DNA of 40,936 bases, taken from the NCBI GenBank assembly GCA_938009735.1, contig CALLIG010000198.1, positions 1 to 40,936 of the forward strand, read 5' to 3'. Both the position numbers and the translations under genes were made by a program. The notes beneath the pieces are model-generated. The model was not told the DNA's origin, made no database searches, and worked only from the letters and a program-made list of their open reading frames with translations. Each line of letters begins with the position of its first letter. Position 1 is the stretch's first letter. Shown here piece by piece: positions 8,195 through 40,936 of this stretch. Source of the stretch: an uncultured Flavobacteriaceae bacterium (GTDB taxonomy: Bacteria; Bacteroidota; Bacteroidia; Flavobacteriales; Flavobacteriaceae).

Positions 8195-9298
8195 TTAAAT
8201 CATCTTATAACCTTCTAAAGTTTTTTTAGCGGTCTCTTCCCAAATATATTCGGAGTAAATCTTTTCTTTCAGCTTGTTATCAAAAGGTGCATTATAAGCC
8301 TCATCTATTGCTTTTCTTATGGAAGCCACATCGTCTGGTTCACAATAAAAAGCATAATCTTCAAAATAATCACGTGTATCACCTTTCTCAGTAATTACAA
8401 TATTAGTGCCCATAGCACCTGCTTCTAATGATGAAAGTCCTGGAGTTTCCATCCAACTAATTAGAGCGTGTACCCTAGCTAGCTTGTAAAAAACCGGAAG
8501 TTTATCATGCGGAATCGCACCCATAAAATGAACATTTGGGCCAGCTGCATCATATACTGCTTTAATAAAACCTGGATCGTTTTTTGTTTGGTTTCCAATA
8601 AGAACTAATGGATACTTGTCGCCGACAGCTTTAACGAGGTTTAAAGTCGCTTTACGCCCTTCAATTCTTGCTACCGAGAGTATACAGTCTTTATACTGTA
8701 AAACATCCTCATCGAGCTCGTCAATATTAATTTTATCAGGATTGAAAAGTCTCGTATCAACAGCGTTAGGTATTACTACATGCTTATAGTCTTTTAGTTT
8801 ATACTCCTTCGCTACACGTTTCATCTCAGAAAATGAGTTCGGTAAAAACACATCTACATTTTCGGTTACTTTTTTAGCCAATCGATAATAGCCCCGAAAA
8901 AGCATGTAGTAAACTCCTTTGTTCATTCTGCCATCTTTTAAATGACGTAAAAATGTTTTAATATAGTTAATAGTATACGGTGAAAGAACATTGGCTACCT
9001 TTTGTGCAAATCCTCCCCTAGCTTTTCTTTCAAACTCTGTATACAGTCCATAGATGGTAGATAAAGCCACCTTTTTATTATACTTTTTTGCATGCTTAAT
9101 TTGCATGTATAATTCTTGAGGGTCCATCAAATTGAACAGATGTACCAAATCATAACCAGTAAGATCAGGTTCTAATTCAATACTTATATCAACTTCCACA
9201 CCCAGCTTTTCTAAATATTCTTTAGTTTTTTCTATTTGCGTGGTATCGCCACCAGGTGCTGAATACAGATTACTTCTTGATTGGAATAAGACTTTCAT
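8195..9298 (-). CDS. Glycosyltransferase family 4 (group 1)
   Basis: A 367-aa cytosolic GT-B glycosyltransferase. I place the start at the ATG at 9298 (MKVLFQSRSNLYSAPGGDTT), where the glycine-rich N-terminal acceptor-binding motif begins; a longer frame to 9340 would overlap the upstream gene without adding domain sequence. The C-terminal donor site reads PGLSSLEAGAMGTNIVIT, a GT4-type E-x7-E-like region, preceded by ILSVARIEGRKATLNL, the usual start of the second Rossmann domain. The start is 2 bp after the stop of the Wzy-like gene, so it is the last gene of the long minus-strand unit. The sugar it transfers cannot be inferred. With the DUF1972-type enzyme it is one of only two classical sugar transferases in the window. 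Confidence 0.88.
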   Translation of the reverse strand: MKVLFQSRSNLYSAPGGDTTQIEKTKEYLEKLGVEVDISIELEPDLTGYDLVHLFNLMDPQELYMQIKHAKKYNKKVALSTIYGLYTEFERKARGGFAQKVANVLSPYTINYIKTFLRHLKDGRMNKGVYYMLFRGYYRLAKKVTENVDVFLPNSFSEMKRVAKEYKLKDYKHVVIPNAVDTRLFNPDKINIDELDEDVLQYKDCILSVARIEGRKATLNLVKAVGDKYPLVLIGNQTKNDPGFIKAVYDAAGPNVHFMGAIPHDKLPVFYKLARVHALISWMETPGLSSLEAGAMGTNIVITEKGDTRDYFEDYAFYCEPDDVASIRKAIDEAYNAPFDNKLKEKIYSEYIWEETAKKTLEGYKMI

Positions 9299-22134: not shown

Positions 22135-23826
22135 TTAAGTTGTTGAATTAAAAATTTGAGTCAAAATTTTATCTGTTATCAAGTATGTCGGTTTAACACC
22201 AGTTGTTCCTAAACCTCCTGAAGCCAAAGTGCTTCCAGTTTCTAAGGGGTTATCTGAAGCATAGTAGGCGTATCTAACCTTAACATCTTCACGAATACTT
22301 TTTCTAATTTTCGAAGCTGATTGTATCGCTTTTTGGTAATGCACGCCTTCCATTTCTAAACCTATAACATTCCAAGTTGATTGATGGAAAAACTTCAAAA
22401 TATCTTTATTTTGGAGAGATGTTCCTAAAACTGTCACCATGGTTCCTTCAAAAACTTCTAAACCATGTCCTTTAAAATCTGCTGCACATAGTTCATTTTC
22501 AAAAGGATAATTATCTGCTGTCCCTTCAAAGATATGCGCTGAAGGAATCATTAAATCACCTTTTCCTCCTTCTAATATGCCCGCTTTACCCATAATGGAA
22601 ATCGAAGCTATATTCAAATATGTAACTCCATTATCTTGACCTCCAAAAGGTTTCAAAAGCTCATCAATAGTCTCATAGGCCTGTTCGCCAAAAGCATAGT
22701 CCATTACAAATATAACAGGTTTTTCATTATCCGGAATACCATTTTCTAGCTGATAACAACATGCGTTTTCCCCTATTTTGGCCATGTCAAATATTTGCAC
22801 GTCGATATTCGTTCCGGACAAATCATCAATGGAAATCATTCCGTTTTTCTTTGCTATCAATTCGACTTTTTTACGCAATTCTTTGTTTCCAGAAGAGCTC
22901 AACGCTTCATAAATTTCTAAAGATTCGTTATTAGGAAATTCTTTAGACAAAGCCTTTCTTGCAAACAGCGAGTTCATGACACTATGCATATTTGCACTAA
23001 TTATATGTATCGGCCTTTTAAGAAGGTTGTTTTTCTTTAACTCTGCTTTAATAACATCTGCCCAGCGTTCACCATGAATATGATGACCAAGGCGTTCTCG
23101 CAGTTGAGCACTAAATGTAATTACTCTTTTATCACCCGTCAACTCTTCCTCAATAGCTAATTTTCCAAGCCACCATATAATTTTTAGAAATCGCTCTGGG
23201 TTATCTTTTGTTGCGAATTTTTCGTATATCCAAAGTACTTCATCAAAACTACGCCCTAAAATATTCGCAGTATGAATCAAGGCTACTTCTCTCTCGGCTT
23301 GTGTAAGTTCTTCTTTCTTAACCGCAGTCTCAAGCTTCGTCCAATCGCGTATGGTTTTATCGGTATCTTCAATAAGTACGCGCTTACAGATTTTTTCAGA
23401 TTCAATAAAAAGAAAGGTAAGGTGGGTTAGAATGTCATAAATGTCTGAACGCCCTCTTGTGATCTCAATATTCATTTGCTCATCATCGATTCGATAGCAA
23501 TTACGTCTTCTTTTTGGAGGAACTATAGGCTTAAAGTGAGATTTACCGTAGCCTTCATCTGTAGTAAGATTAATGAATTTGCATTCCTCAATTCCTTCTG
23601 GCAAGCGTTCTAAAACATAGATAAGACCATTAAATTCTGCTTTCTCTTCTGCTACCGTACCATAAATTTCAGGGCGCAGTTGAAGTAGTGCGTTTTTAAG
23701 AGATTCTCCTGAAACTCCAGTAGGTTTGTAAAAACCTCTATTAAATAAGTGACGCATTGTTATATACAAACGCTCAATCGCGTTGGTAGATTCTTGCGCT
23801 CGTGTAGTAGTGGTTGTTTTGCCCAT
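22135..23826 (-). CDS. Conserved protein with C-terminal nucleoside-phosphorylase-like region (function unknown)
   Basis: A 563-aa soluble protein I know only as a conserved flavobacterial family of unknown function (it may be DUF6909). The N-terminal 260 residues are mostly helical and unrecognised. Residues about 365-530 recall the PNP/MTA nucleosidase fold: a strand PVIFVMDYAFG (370-380), GTMVTVLGTS (461-470), GLEMEGVHYQKAI (489-501), like the family's MEG motif that contacts ribose, and then VRYAYYASDNPL (517-528), where the catalytic Asp of that family normally sits. Those matches are by eye. It lies between the GH3 gene (52 bp upstream) and the Wzz-like gene (7 bp downstream), with a promoter-like TAATTTTG just ahead. 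Not obviously a polysaccharide enzyme; GH3 partnership is a possibility. Confidence 0.7.
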   Translation of the reverse strand: MGKTTTTTRAQESTNAIERLYITMRHLFNRGFYKPTGVSGESLKNALLQLRPEIYGTVAEEKAEFNGLIYVLERLPEGIEECKFINLTTDEGYGKSHFKPIVPPKRRRNCYRIDDEQMNIEITRGRSDIYDILTHLTFLFIESEKICKRVLIEDTDKTIRDWTKLETAVKKEELTQAEREVALIHTANILGRSFDEVLWIYEKFATKDNPERFLKIIWWLGKLAIEEELTGDKRVITFSAQLRERLGHHIHGERWADVIKAELKKNNLLKRPIHIISANMHSVMNSLFARKALSKEFPNNESLEIYEALSSSGNKELRKKVELIAKKNGMISIDDLSGTNIDVQIFDMAKIGENACCYQLENGIPDNEKPVIFVMDYAFGEQAYETIDELLKPFGGQDNGVTYLNIASISIMGKAGILEGGKGDLMIPSAHIFEGTADNYPFENELCAADFKGHGLEVFEGTMVTVLGTSLQNKDILKFFHQSTWNVIGLEMEGVHYQKAIQSASKIRKSIREDVKVRYAYYASDNPLETGSTLASGGLGTTGVKPTYLITDKILTQIFNSTT

Positions 23827-23878: not shown

Positions 23879-25381
23879 CTATCCTTCAGTTTTTTGTGCT
23901 GAAAGTACATCAGCAACCTTTCGGTCATTTGCTAAGCGCTGTACTTTATTCTGCCCTCCTAATTTTCCTATAGATTTCATGTATGCTTGAAACCCTCCCT
24001 TATTTATTGATGTAATTTTTAATGTTTGTAGTATTCTACCGTCGATTAAATCGAAATAATAACTATTCTGTTTTTGGAGAGAAGAATCTAAAAGTTCAAT
24101 AAATTTTGATTTATCAGAGGGTTCTTTTTCAAATTCTATGAGCCACTCATGATATGGCAACTGATCGCCTTCAGGTGTAATTTGTGGAGCAACCGTAAAT
24201 TCGTTTACTTGAGCGTCAGATTGACTAATTGCCTGTTGCATAGCCTCTTCAACTTCTTTTGCAATAACATGTTCGCCGAATGCAGAAATAAAATGCTTTA
24301 TGCGCCCAGAGACTATAATTTTAAATGGCTTTAATGAAATAAACTGAACGGTATCTCCTAGGTTATACGCCCATAATCCAGCGTTTGTTGAGATGATCAT
24401 TACATAATTTACATGTAGTTCGACATCTTTTAAAGTTAGACGCTTTGCATCTTCCTCAAAAAATTCATCTGATTTTACAAATTCATAAAAAATGCCTGAA
24501 TTCAAAAGCAAAAGCATTCCCTTTTCTTTCTGAGAATTTTGATATGCAAAAAACCCTTCACTAGCAGGAAAAAGTTCTATACTATCTACTTTTCTGCCGA
24601 TCAGATTTTCGAATTTTGCGCGATATGGTTCATAATTAACTCCTCCATAAATAAACAAATTGAAATTTTTGAATAGTTCACCGATTGGTTTGCCGGTTTT
24701 ATCTCGTAGTTTTTCAAAATACATTTGCACCCATGACGGTATCCCTGCAATGATCGTCATATCCTCATTCATAGTCTCTTTGACTATAGTATTAACCTTG
24801 GTTTCCCAGTCTTCAATGCAATTGGTTTCCCAGCTGGGCAATCGGTTTTTTTGAAGATAGTTAGGCACATAATGCGCTGAGATTCCTGAAAGTCTTCCTA
24901 GTTTGATACCGTTCTTCTCCTGCATTTCAGGACTTCCCTGTAAAAAAATCATTTTACCATCTACGAATGCGGTATTTCCTGTTTCGTGAATGTAGTTTAG
25001 AATAGCATTACGAGACGCCTCAATTTGATACTTAATTGATTCTTCAGTTATAGGAATATACTTTGCGCCTGAAGTTGTACCTGATGTCTTGGCAAAATAT
25101 TTTGGTTTACCAGGCCATAAGATATCTTCCTTGCCTTCTACAACTTGTTCAACATAATGTTTAAGTTGTTCATAATCACGAATAGGAACTTTTTTGACAA
25201 AATCTGAATATGATTCTATAGCCGTAAACTCATGGTCCTTTCCGAATTGTGTTTGTGAAGCTTTAGATATTATTTCATTGAATACTCTTTGTTGAGTTTC
25301 AAATGGATTATTAGCCCACTTAGCCGTTTTTGATGCTATATTCTTTGCGAAAATTTTAGCACCTAGTGATTTTAATGACAT
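23879..25381 (-). CDS. GH3-family acyl-adenylate / acyl-amido synthetase-like protein
   Basis: A 500-aa cytosolic protein of the GH3 family, known from plants where it adenylates acyl acids and conjugates them to amino acids; the bacterial role is unknown. The ATP/AMP-binding motif is YFAKTSGTTSGAKYIPIT (about 96-113). It is followed by SIELFPASEGFFAYQ (about 267-281), an acid-rich acyl-AMP motif, then STNAGLWAYNLGDTVQF (about 330-346) and ISAFGEHVIAKEVEEAM (about 365-381) at the mobile C-terminal lobe. It has full family length. The start is 5 bp from the stop of the upstream M23 gene, so the two are co-transcribed. Substrate is not inferable. Confidence 0.88.
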   Translation of the reverse strand: MSLKSLGAKIFAKNIASKTAKWANNPFETQQRVFNEIISKASQTQFGKDHEFTAIESYSDFVKKVPIRDYEQLKHYVEQVVEGKEDILWPGKPKYFAKTSGTTSGAKYIPITEESIKYQIEASRNAILNYIHETGNTAFVDGKMIFLQGSPEMQEKNGIKLGRLSGISAHYVPNYLQKNRLPSWETNCIEDWETKVNTIVKETMNEDMTIIAGIPSWVQMYFEKLRDKTGKPIGELFKNFNLFIYGGVNYEPYRAKFENLIGRKVDSIELFPASEGFFAYQNSQKEKGMLLLLNSGIFYEFVKSDEFFEEDAKRLTLKDVELHVNYVMIISTNAGLWAYNLGDTVQFISLKPFKIIVSGRIKHFISAFGEHVIAKEVEEAMQQAISQSDAQVNEFTVAPQITPEGDQLPYHEWLIEFEKEPSDKSKFIELLDSSLQKQNSYYFDLIDGRILQTLKITSINKGGFQAYMKSIGKLGGQNKVQRLANDRKVADVLSAQKTEG

Positions 25382-37337: not shown

Positions 37338-38165
37338 TTAGGCCTTTTTCAGGATGTATATTAGCGAAGAGTGCTCTTTTGTTTTTAAAGCTTTAATATT
37401 TGACCATAGACCTAATAAAAATGCTTTTATAAAATTTTGCTTTCCTGATTTATATTTTTCTGAAAGTAATGCTACATAAAACGCATCGAAAATCATTGGT
37501 TTCGTTTTGACCAATTTTAATCCGTGTTTCGAAAAAAGCTTTTCGATTGATGTTTTTGAAAAATGCCAAAGATGTCTTGGCACATCATAAGCTGCCCAAT
37601 GCTCTTTATAATATTTAGCATCGTACGATTTAAAATTTGGAACTGCTATCACCAAAGTTCCCTCCTCTTCTAAATGCCAAGCCAGTTTAATAATTTGATT
37701 TTCTAAATCTGGCAAATGTTCTAGCACATGCCATAAAGTAATTACGTTATATTTCTTTCCTGGTAATGACTCCATTCGGTCCATAAGACCTATTCCTTTT
37801 TCAACTGCTCTCATTCGAGCATCGTAGTTCGGTTCTACACCGTCAACCTTCCAATTTTGATTTTTAGCAGCCAACATAAAATCTCCAGTTCCGGCTCCAA
37901 CATCGAGCAAGGTTTTATGTTTATTCGCAAAACTATTTACTAGTCTGGTTTTTTTCTGAATACTATATTTTTTCACAACCTGGTAGATCTTATCGACAAC
38001 AGATTTAGTAGCATCTGTATGAGAGATATAATCTTCACTTTCGTAGTACTTAGCAATATCTTCAGGTTGAGGATTTGTAATTAGCATGTCTAACGTTTCG
38101 TCATGCACTAATTCAAACACCTCTTTAGAAATGGAAAAATCTTTAGTTTTTAAATACGGTTTCAT
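37338..38165 (-). CDS. Class I SAM-dependent methyltransferase
   Basis: A 275-aa Rossmann-fold methyltransferase. SAM-binding motif I is TLLDVGAGTGDFM (85-97), then VDGVEPN (107-113; the acidic residue for the ribose) and VITLWHVLEHLPDL (141-154). The late strand TLVIAVPNFKSYDAKYY and the AYDVPRHLWHFS motif follow, characteristic of methyltransferases with O-methyl acceptors. I use the ATG at 38165; the longer TTG frame to 38183 adds no domain sequence. The start lies inside the 3' end of the upstream lipoprotein gene (23-bp overlap), so the two are coupled. Substrate unknown. Confidence 0.88.
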   Translation of the reverse strand: MKPYLKTKDFSISKEVFELVHDETLDMLITNPQPEDIAKYYESEDYISHTDATKSVVDKIYQVVKKYSIQKKTRLVNSFANKHKTLLDVGAGTGDFMLAAKNQNWKVDGVEPNYDARMRAVEKGIGLMDRMESLPGKKYNVITLWHVLEHLPDLENQIIKLAWHLEEEGTLVIAVPNFKSYDAKYYKEHWAAYDVPRHLWHFSKTSIEKLFSKHGLKLVKTKPMIFDAFYVALLSEKYKSGKQNFIKAFLLGLWSNIKALKTKEHSSLIYILKKA

Positions 38166-38685
38166 TATAGTTGTGAGTGGCAAGGTATTCTTTCTTCAAA
38201 GTGCGAAGATACTTTAAAACGATTTCTCTCGAAAGAGAAGTTTCTTCCAAACAATCTGGTTCAGCATCGTTATAAACTTCTAAGGCCACATACCAATTTC
38301 CTTTTCTACTACTGTATGAATTTTCGAGTACAGGATTTATATCAGAAGCCAATAAAGCAACATCAATTACAATCGGCAAAAGATTCAAAGTCTTATCAGG
38401 AATTTCGATTTCATACCATGCAAAAAAATATTGCTCGCCATCAATTTCAAAAGGGATATCGTCATAAACATCTGTATGATCCAATTGAAATTTTATATTC
38501 ACAAAATTGTAAAATTCCTCTGCATCTTTAGAGTCCTCGAATATGAACATTTGACGTTTAGAAAGCTCGCGCTTAAACTTCTTTCCTTTCGTAATTTTAT
38601 AGTCTGCAATATCTGGTGCTATTCTTAATGGAATGCAACATTGAAGTATAAAGAGCATTAAAACAAAAGGTAGAATTCGTTTCAT
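38143..38685 (-). CDS. Small hypothetical lipoprotein
   Basis: A 180-aa protein I do not recognise. The N-terminus MKRILPFVLMLFILQCC has a hydrophobic stretch and a lipobox-like LQC, so it is likely a lipoprotein. The rest is mixed alpha/beta with aromatic-rich acidic stretches (FAWYEIEIPD, GNWYVALEVYND) and no known motif. It overlaps the methyltransferase start by 23 bp. The parS-like palindrome lies 78 bp upstream of its start. Confidence 0.7.
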   Translation of the reverse strand: MKRILPFVLMLFILQCCIPLRIAPDIADYKITKGKKFKRELSKRQMFIFEDSKDAEEFYNFVNIKFQLDHTDVYDDIPFEIDGEQYFFAWYEIEIPDKTLNLLPIVIDVALLASDINPVLENSYSSRKGNWYVALEVYNDAEPDCLEETSLSREIVLKYLRTLKKEYLATHNYNETVFKN

Positions 38686-38762: not shown

Positions 38763-38780
38763 ATGTTCCACGTGGAACAT
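38763..38780. promoter_or_regulatory. Candidate parS centromere site (ParB-binding palindrome)
   Basis: ATGTTCCACGTGGAACAT is a perfect 18-bp palindrome. Its 16-bp core TGTTCCACGTGGAACA fits the conserved bacterial parS consensus TGTTNCACGTGNAACA at every defined position. It is intergenic, 3 bp beyond the stop of the gene at 38784-39257. ParB binds such sites and spreads to form the chromosome-partition complex, normally near the replication origin. mnmG next door supports an origin-proximal location; parA/parB are not in the window. Confidence 0.85.
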
Positions 38781-38783
38781 GCC

Positions 38784-39257
38784 TTAACTTTTTAATCTAA
38801 CTTCAGTATTTAATAATTCGCTCACCTCCTTAGCTCTAGTATTTGCTAAGTCTAAGTTCTTCGTTTTCCAGATCGTGAAATGTCTATTCCCTTTAAAAAA
38901 ACGAATAACATAGGTGCCTCCCTTTGATTGAGAACCTAAAGCCGCGACCGGACCCCACTCAGAATCTTTTTTAAATAGGGCAGAAAAAACTATGATATAA
39001 TCAGGGAATACAATCTCTAGCTTTTGCCTAAATAAAGAAACTCCGTACAATTTGAAATGTGTTTTATGATCCAAATTTTCTTTGATCTCATAAGACACAG
39101 AGTAACCCAAAAGCACAAATCCTATAAGACACATGATGGAGATTTGACTCCACGCTACTCTATCTTCTATTGTCAAAAAAACAAGTAGAAGTAGAATTAC
39201 TATTCCTAAAATAGTAACTGTTAATGGCTTGGATTGTTTAAAATAAAGTGACTTCAT
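38784..39257 (-). CDS. Hypothetical two-helix membrane protein
   Basis: A 157-aa protein with two TM helices (about 13-30 and 36-54) and a C-terminal soluble part of about 95 residues made mostly of beta strands and one final helix (NLDLANTRAKEVSELL). That arrangement recalls PH-like domain membrane proteins, but no family is recognised. Its ATG shares a base with the mnmG stop (TAATG), so it is translated with mnmG. Function unknown. Confidence 0.75.
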   Translation of the reverse strand: MKSLYFKQSKPLTVTILGIVILLLLVFLTIEDRVAWSQISIMCLIGFVLLGYSVSYEIKENLDHKTHFKLYGVSLFRQKLEIVFPDYIIVFSALFKKDSEWGPVAALGSQSKGGTYVIRFFKGNRHFTIWKTKNLDLANTRAKEVSELLNTEVRLKS

Positions 39258-40936
39258 TACCTACCCATAAATACAAGAAGAACGCTAATATCTGAAGGAG
39301 AAACTCCGCTAATTCTTGAAGCCTGTGCAATAGTAACAGGACGAATAGCAGTAAACTTTTCACGTGCTTCATAAGATAAGGACTTCAGCTTTGTATAGTC
39401 AAAATCTTTTGGGATTTTGACATCTTCTAATCGATGAAGTTTATCTGCATTGTTCTTCTCCTTTGCTATATATCCAGAGTATTTAACTTGAACTTCTGTC
39501 TGTTCTAAGACCTCACTATCCAAATTATTCTCTTCTACGAAAGCGGAAACTGCATCTAATTGTAGCATATGCTGCATAGTTACTTTGGGCCTTGAAAAAG
39601 ACCTTACCATCTTATCAGATTGCTTAACTAAAGCAGAATCTAAGCTCTCTAGAATTGGATTTATATCCTTTGGAAGAACACTTGTATCATTAAAAAACTT
39701 AATAAAAGCATTAGACTTTCGCTCCTTTTCCTCCATTCGTTCAAGGCGCTCTTTACTTGCTAAACCTATCTTATATCCTTTTGGAGTTAATCTTAAATCC
39801 GCGTTATCTTGACGTAACAACGTACGGTATTCAGCACGAGATGTAAACATACGATAAGGCTCTTCTGTTCCTTTTGTAATAAGATCATCTATTAAAACAC
39901 CTATGTAGGCTTCATCTCTTTTTAGAATAAACTCATCTTGCTCCTTCACTTTTAGATGGGCATTTATACCTGCCATTAAACCTTGAGAGGCAGCTTCTTC
40001 ATAACCTGTAGTTCCATTAATTTGACCTGCGAAATAAAGGTTTCCAACAAGCTTTGTTTCTAGTGTATGTTTCAATTGTGTTGGCGGGAAATAGTCATAC
40101 TCTATGGCATATCCCGGTCTAAAGAACTTCACGTTCTCGAATCCCACAACAGAACGTAATGCTTTAAATTGAACATCTTCCGGCAAAGACGTTGAGAAGC
40201 CATTCACATAAACCTCTACCGTATTCCAACCTTCAGGTTCGACAAATAACTGATGACTATCCTTGTCTGCAAACCTATTAATTTTATCTTCTATCGACGG
40301 ACAATATCTTGGCCCTATACTTTTAATTCTTCCATTAAACATAGGTGATCTATCAAACCCTTCTTTCAATAAATCATGCACCAATGAACTTGTATGCGAC
40401 ATATGGCAATCACGTTGATGTTCTAATGCTTTAGTATTTGTATAAGAGAATTTTTCAGGTACAGCATCACCTGGTTGAATTATCATTTTGGAATAATTCA
40501 AAGAACGTCCATCCACCCTAGGCGGAGTGCCCGTCTTCATTCTTCCGCTTTCAAATCCGAAACCAGTTAGTTGCTCTGTTATTCCAGTTGCTGCTTTTTC
40601 ACCAGCTCTACCTCCACCGAACTGTTTTTCGCCGATGTGTATTAATCCATTTAGAAAAGTTCCATTTGTCAATACCACAGATTTCGCTCTTACCTCTAAG
40701 CCTAGTGAAGTTTTTACTCCTGTTACTTTTCCGTTCTCGACAATTAAACCGCTTACCATTTCTTGATAGAAATCACAATTAGGTGTATTCTCAAGAGCCA
40801 ATCTCCACTCCTCGGCAAAACGCATTCGATCACTTTGAGCTCTAGGACTCCACATTGCTGGACCCTTAGACTTATTAAGCATTTTAAATTGAATCGCCGA
40901 CTTATCAGTTATGATTCCGCTGTATCCTCCAAGGGC
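39257..40936 (-). CDS. mnmG: tRNA uridine 5-carboxymethylaminomethyl modification enzyme MnmG (5' end cut by window edge)
   Basis: FAD enzyme that with MnmE modifies U34 of several tRNAs. 559 codons plus the stop are visible, in frame to base 40936. About 60 N-terminal residues, including the first FAD-binding glycine loop, lie outside. Visible motifs: KGPAMWSPRAQSDRMRFAEE, LTNGTFLNGLIHIG, GRMKTGTPPRVDGRSL, SIGPRYCPSIEDKI, LYFAGQINGTTGYEEAA and the C-terminal helical GISPSDIS-like RISGVSPSDISVLLV. A Met 18 codons in from the edge is internal and not the start. mnmG (gidA) often lies next to the replication origin. Translationally coupled to the membrane protein gene downstream. Confidence 0.97.
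   Translation of the reverse strand, partial: ALGGYSGIITDKSAIQFKMLNKSKGPAMWSPRAQSDRMRFAEEWRLALENTPNCDFYQEMVSGLIVENGKVTGVKTSLGLEVRAKSVVLTNGTFLNGLIHIGEKQFGGGRAGEKAATGITEQLTGFGFESGRMKTGTPPRVDGRSLNYSKMIIQPGDAVPEKFSYTNTKALEHQRDCHMSHTSSLVHDLLKEGFDRSPMFNGRIKSIGPRYCPSIEDKINRFADKDSHQLFVEPEGWNTVEVYVNGFSTSLPEDVQFKALRSVVGFENVKFFRPGYAIEYDYFPPTQLKHTLETKLVGNLYFAGQINGTTGYEEAASQGLMAGINAHLKVKEQDEFILKRDEAYIGVLIDDLITKGTEEPYRMFTSRAEYRTLLRQDNADLRLTPKGYKIGLASKERLERMEEKERKSNAFIKFFNDTSVLPKDINPILESLDSALVKQSDKMVRSFSRPKVTMQHMLQLDAVSAFVEENNLDSEVLEQTEVQVKYSGYIAKEKNNADKLHRLEDVKIPKDFDYTKLKSLSYEAREKFTAIRPVTIAQASRISGVSPSDISVLLVFMGR

Follow-up and report, generated by a model that had tools for sequence, protein, structure and literature searches.

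Does an 18-bp palindrome lying close to mnmG in an uncultured Flavobacteriaceae bacterium serve as a centromere of the chromosome, and does it lie where replication begins? The palindrome is situated near the right end of the stretch of DNA that was analyzed (40,936 nucleotides, hereafter the window), corresponding to contig C198 in a draft genome of 390 contigs (3.99 Mb, 85% complete). From sequence comparisons, we consider it highly probable that the palindrome is a chromosomal parS belonging to a ParABS system, that it has a partner on the other side of mnmG, and that the pair forms the centromere, close to the origin, of a chromosome of the Flavobacteriaceae type. The parS element itself is of a known kind; its pairing around mnmG is conserved and is the less familiar part.

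The palindrome and its partner across mnmG

The 18-mer ATGTTCCACGTGGAACAT occupies positions 38763-38780 of the window, without strand, and its 16-bp core (38764-38779) matched the ParB-binding consensus TGTTNCACGTGNAACA with no mismatch, the only such site returned by a motif scan of the window. Given this exact motif and a placement conserved in relatives, it is very probable that ParB docks on the palindrome, i.e., that this is a parS, and the perfect match announced by the first-pass annotation was confirmed. That annotation also counted three other CACGTG hexamers lacking the flanking match. Six were found (at 8371, 13166, 16077, 21067, 25594 and 39361), and the flanking match was indeed absent from all of them. 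The bare hexamer was mildly enriched in the window, with seven occurrences vs. 2.3 expected.

Two minus-strand ORFs, separated by a gap of 98 bp, enclose the site, one of 180 aa on the far side of parS (38143-38685) and one of 157 aa between parS and mnmG (38784-39257). Neither ORF matched a family in a Pfam profile search at E ≤ 0.001, which agrees with their earlier description as genes of unknown function. mnmG (gidA; 39257-40936, minus strand; Pfam GIDA, GIDA_C_1st and SAM_GIDA_C) follows, its 5´ end cut by the contig end, and its stop codon is 477 bp from the parS site, close to the 0.5 kb first estimated. Beyond the 180-aa ORF, a SAM-dependent methyltransferase gene (37338-38183, minus strand; Pfam Methyltransf_23) was also recovered by tblastn from the loci of several relatives, where it likewise lies 3´ of mnmG and parS.

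A search of the draft genome at one mismatch or fewer, as had been proposed, returned a single other match, exact and located at 377-392 of contig C84, at the opposite end of mnmG. The first 141 bases of C84 are identical to the last 141 of the window (40796-40936, an overlap of contig ends without strand), and C84 carries the first codons of mnmG (locus L001, 1-330). In the window frame, the second parS would correspond to position 41172, outside the window and 2408 bp from the first. It falls in the 3´-terminal codons of ybeY (Pfam YbeY), whose product ends in KLFHVEQ, just before the mnmG start. Taken together, the contig overlap and the second site by the mnmG start place mnmG between two exact parS motifs.

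Conservation of the sites in Flavobacteriales and wider Bacteroidota

Placement was then compared across 59 genomes of the order Flavobacteriales, our own included, of which 57 contained the mnmG C-terminal domain; sites with at most one mismatch were counted relative to mnmG in these 57. A site was present beside mnmG in 53/57 genomes, at the 5´ end in 46, at the 3´ end likewise in 46 and at both ends in 39. The 3´ site was centred 24-50 bp beyond the end of the mnmG domain in 38 of 46 cases and 80-503 bp beyond it in the remaining eight, with the 503-bp distance occurring in our genome, G007 and G010. The 157-aa ORF was also matched between mnmG and parS in the latter two (loci L020 and L027). 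Elsewhere, tblastn of the relatives' loci indicated that the neighbouring ORFs vary between relatives while the site stays.

Among the matches listed, 69 sites were exact, 67 of them at mnmG and two counted elsewhere (our C84 and G028:C334). Both of these contigs carry YbeY and the MnmG N-terminus and therefore represent the same mnmG locus, with the contigs split. Thus, no exact copy away from the mnmG locus was found among the matches listed in the order. Occurrence at random positions, which had been named as an argument against a parS, was not seen; within the 85%-complete draft and the order, the copies listed were few, clustered, conserved and absent elsewhere. One-mismatch matches elsewhere numbered 27 among those listed in the 57 genomes, compared to 23 for a reversed-pattern control over all 59; one match in G001 (a draft without mnmG) and two in G002 fall outside the count of 27.

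Four genomes with mnmG had no site beside it at one mismatch or fewer (G029, G040, G046 and G050). The first three carry a two-mismatch site just 3´ of mnmG, their genome totals at two mismatches being 4, 13 and 6, respectively, against 1, 4 and 1 for the reversed control. G050 keeps mnmG, and neither a site, even at two mismatches, nor a ParB match was found in it. Most genomes in its family are tiny. Of the 31 family members searched, 30 had no ParB match and no site at one mismatch or fewer, and the sole member with ParB, G352 (1.3 Mb), had two one-mismatch matches, one of which is AGTTCCACGTGGAACA. Since small genomes would rarely show chance matches, the family result is read as a joint absence and not as more.

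At the level of the phylum, exact TGTTYCACGTGRAACA occurred in 224/296 genomes and was absent from 72/296, vs. 1/296 for the reversed control. mnmG and/or ybeY were contained in 24 of 30 phylum loci examined; the six loci with neither belong to families f19 and f23. In these two Bacteroidota families, the exact parS examined (L179-L182, L187 and L188) are not at mnmG. The f23 loci (L187 and L188) contain dciA, and L188 also has an ORF that was judged recF-like by eye, with sub-threshold Pfam support.

Named genomes were additionally scanned for sites with a stop-like codon after them, which yielded at least 118 loci, at least 32 of them assignable to Bacteroidota by title. For 30 of the 32, among the matches listed, an exact site lay within 500 bp of an mnmG match, including those of Flavobacterium soli, Dokdonia pacifica, Flagellimonas amoyensis, Christiangramia sediminis and Winogradskyella haliclonae; locus L217 seems to be contig G013:C8 again. 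Separately, a Bacteroidetes MAG (JACPUW010000006.1; L250, 5202-5814) carries seven exact parS in an array with a period of about 99 bp, directly after a YbeY match. Among the titles and abstract openings listed in literature searches, none was about parS bracketing mnmG in Bacteroidota; as the survey by Livny et al. (2007) may include such sites, we make no claim to a first report.

The 5´ sites were further examined at 40 loci with a YbeY match (from L001-L032 and L173-L202), again with at most one mismatch. A script placed the site inside ybeY codons in 22/40; as L014 has an earlier in-frame stop, the strict count is 21/40. At L014, the DNA site persists although it has ceased to code, which is consistent with selection acting on the DNA. 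The coding form occurred mainly in the genus of the window (g1) and in g43, other groups contributing isolated cases. Sites in the 3´ codons of ybeY were recorded at L001 (373-792, G000:C84), L007, L018, L022, L024-L026, L029, L031, L191-L197 and L199-L202. The resulting YbeY C-terminus reads FHVEQ or one of the variants FHVEL, FHVEP, FHVEH and FHVKH, as though a DNA site were shaping a protein tail. The eleven g43 loci (L191-L197 and L199-L202) have three to six sites, exact or with one mismatch, in the ybeY end and within 300 bp of it.

Position relative to the replication origin

Cumulative skew, raw and at third codon positions, was followed in 20-kb stretches sampled from six closed relatives assembled as single contigs. 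mnmG fell inside the sampled skew-minimum interval by both measures in the three genomes with strong skew (G027, G034 and G037). Where skew was weak, the minimum was 100-185 kb (G048), 259-352 kb (G046) and 259-392 kb (G052, with the two measures on opposite sides of mnmG) away from the gene. On a contiguous 217-kb map of G027, parS is at 932 kb, 14 kb from the third-codon minimum (918 kb) and 42 kb from the raw one (890 kb).

Across the six genomes, dnaA was found 540-1919 kb and parB 168-1293 kb from mnmG (0.9-1.9 Mb for the two genes in the strong-skew three), and the parAB of our genome is on another contig than the window. In view of these distances, neither parAB nor dnaA marks the origin here. 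Mapping the motif against parAB, dnaA and the skew minimum, a check suggested at the outset, accordingly gave a mixed outcome, with the minimum coinciding in three of six closed relatives and the two gene landmarks proving not to be neighbours.

A genuine parS at an mnmG locus that, in this organism, is remote from the origin, and hence a centromere away from oriC, would account for the distant parAB and dnaA and for the remote minima of G046 and G052. We regard this as unlikely, as all three strong-skew genomes have their minimum in the mnmG interval and oriC has been predicted at mnmG by others, through Ori-Finder and GC skew, in two Flavobacteriaceae, Mariniflexile litorale (PMC11278836) and Algorimicrobium (PMC12843772). 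For the former, dnaA is reported not to fit the skew; a figure legend of that paper, contradicting its text, assigns ter to mnmG and oriC to leuB and dnaA. Strains in both papers bear KMM numbers, so that the two predictions are perhaps not independent. The skew of the window itself also argues against a centromere away from oriC: it was negative in nine of ten 4-kb bins and +0.004 in the tenth, the sign being that predicted for an origin located at the right end or past it.

A scan of the window for DnaA boxes (TTATCCACA, at most one mismatch) returned 12 matches vs. 13 expected and no cluster; Bacteroidota boxes may differ from this pattern. Similarly, no dense cluster was detected among the best 40 matches in the stretches from the six closed relatives (at most three in 400 bp), of which only those from G027 and G048 include mnmG itself. 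The box scans thus did not pinpoint the exact oriC.

These results bear on the earlier proposal that the right end of the window lies in the partition and origin zone. Its parS component was strongly supported, and its origin component found support in relatives only, from three of six skew minima and the two published predictions. The mnmG/parS locus seems to mark where chromosome copying starts. A published list of 'origin genes' (PMC2099444) includes parA/parB, gidA/gidB and dnaA/dnaN, among others; compared with such a cluster, mnmG (gidA) has here retained its parS and, in genomes of clear skew, its place at the skew minimum, whereas dnaA and parB are 0.54-1.9 Mb and 0.17-1.3 Mb away, respectively, in the six closed relatives. 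That oriC is commonly far from dnaA in Bacteroidetes is also stated in a Prevotella paper (PMC4755523). Judged by sequence, then, the site in this order stays with mnmG, and with the apparent origin where skew is clear; the ParA, ParB and DnaA genes are elsewhere on the chromosome.

The polysaccharide-type genes of the window (glycosyltransferase, Polysacc_synt and GDP-mannose dehydratase-like, at about 8-21 kb) are within 40 kb of the site, and their origin-proximal position, also put forward in the first-pass annotation, follows only by linkage if the origin is at mnmG. At the edge of these genes, a DUF6909 gene adjoins a GH3-family gene (22135-23826 and 23879-25381).

ParB, competing readings and proposed function

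One ParB gene was found in our genome; contig C388 carries it within the series parA, parB, DUF5683, dapB. Its product has ParB_N, HTH_ParB and ParB_C domains, the CTPase motif GERRFR and residues R173, N178, Y179, K184, G201 and R204 (in Caulobacter numbering, which was fixed by the GKxR motif rather than by structural alignment). Among solved structures, ParB and Spo0J chains matched its sequence best. The parA gene, a 257-aa ORF directly upstream, matched AAA_31 and CbiA (CobQ/CobB/MinD/ParA family). According to PMC7383237, R173 and G201 are invariant among ParB proteins, whereas Noc has other residues there; by this rule, the protein is predicted to be a ParB of the parS class. The Noc/NBS nucleoid occlusion system resembles the present one in combining a ParB-like protein with a related palindromic site. 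However, Noc has Q173/K179/K184/R201 (same paper), as opposed to R173/Y179/K184/G201 here, and the site has the parS form; a Noc site was rejected on both grounds.

In its 16-bp palindrome TGTTNCACGTGNAACA, the R173/G201 and GERRxR signatures of ParB, a parA directly upstream of parB and a location close to the skew minimum in those closed relatives whose skew is strong, the locus resembles a chromosomal ParABS parS. It differs in that parAB is beside neither parS nor the origin, that two sites, one per mnmG end, are common (39/57), and that one site codes the YbeY C-terminus FHVEQ in some genera. The parS identity is favoured because the site is beside mnmG in 53/57 genomes, no exact copy is listed elsewhere, a parS-class ParB and a ParA are encoded, and ParB and site are jointly absent in one family. 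Counting against the main reading are the distant parAB, the minima of the three weak-skew genomes, the missing DnaA-box cluster, the 72/296 phylum genomes lacking the exact motif, the six of 30 loci with the motif away from mnmG and the contradictory figure legend.

Being palindromic and, here, intergenic, the site might alternatively be the operator of a dedicated transcription factor for mnmG or its neighbours, with no link to ParB. This is very improbable and was rejected, since the ParB consensus is matched exactly, copies lie after the mnmG stop and, in 21/40 loci, inside ybeY codons and not at promoters, the neighbouring ORFs change among relatives while the site stays, and G050 keeps mnmG yet has neither ParB nor sites. 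A chance match without function, for which the presence of just one site in the window might speak, can be dismissed, as Markov models of the window (orders 0-3) predict only 1.4e-4 (order 0) to 6e-5 (order 3) exact TGTTNCACGTGNAACA matches per window, or about 0.006-0.013 per 4 Mb vs. two in the draft genome, and the position is conserved across the order.

If the palindrome is a parS, known ParABS biochemistry suggests that ParB dimers would load on each of the two sites and close into CTP-dependent clamps sliding onto the flanking DNA, including mnmG. ParB would then attract ParA, whose ATPase would move the origin region apart, and would probably also load SMC, the origin region most likely being ordered as well as moved in this way.

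More tentatively, and with somewhat less than even confidence, we suggest that in Flavobacteriales and much of Bacteroidota the centromere may consist of two ParB-loading sites in fixed positions on either side of mnmG, that selection on the DNA site may be strong enough to dictate the FHVEQ end of YbeY in several genera, that the mnmG-parS unit, rather than dnaA or parAB, may be the durable marker of the origin, and that mnmG may be the core of a ParB/SMC loading platform. If so, parS-mnmG-parS would provide a simple landmark of the centromere, and probably of the origin, for Bacteroidota genomes, fragmented MAGs included, and starting the map at dnaA would be misleading in this phylum, which matters for replication-rate estimates based on read depth. 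It would also be an example of a DNA site shaping a protein C-terminus, and of a ParABS system whose DNA site stays put while its protein genes sit elsewhere. In some relatives, a second, long ParB-domain protein (open frame of 568-616 aa), possibly of a mobile-element type, is encoded, namely at G008:C43:4715, G030:C2:628740, G025:C18:76088 and G034:C1:781633.
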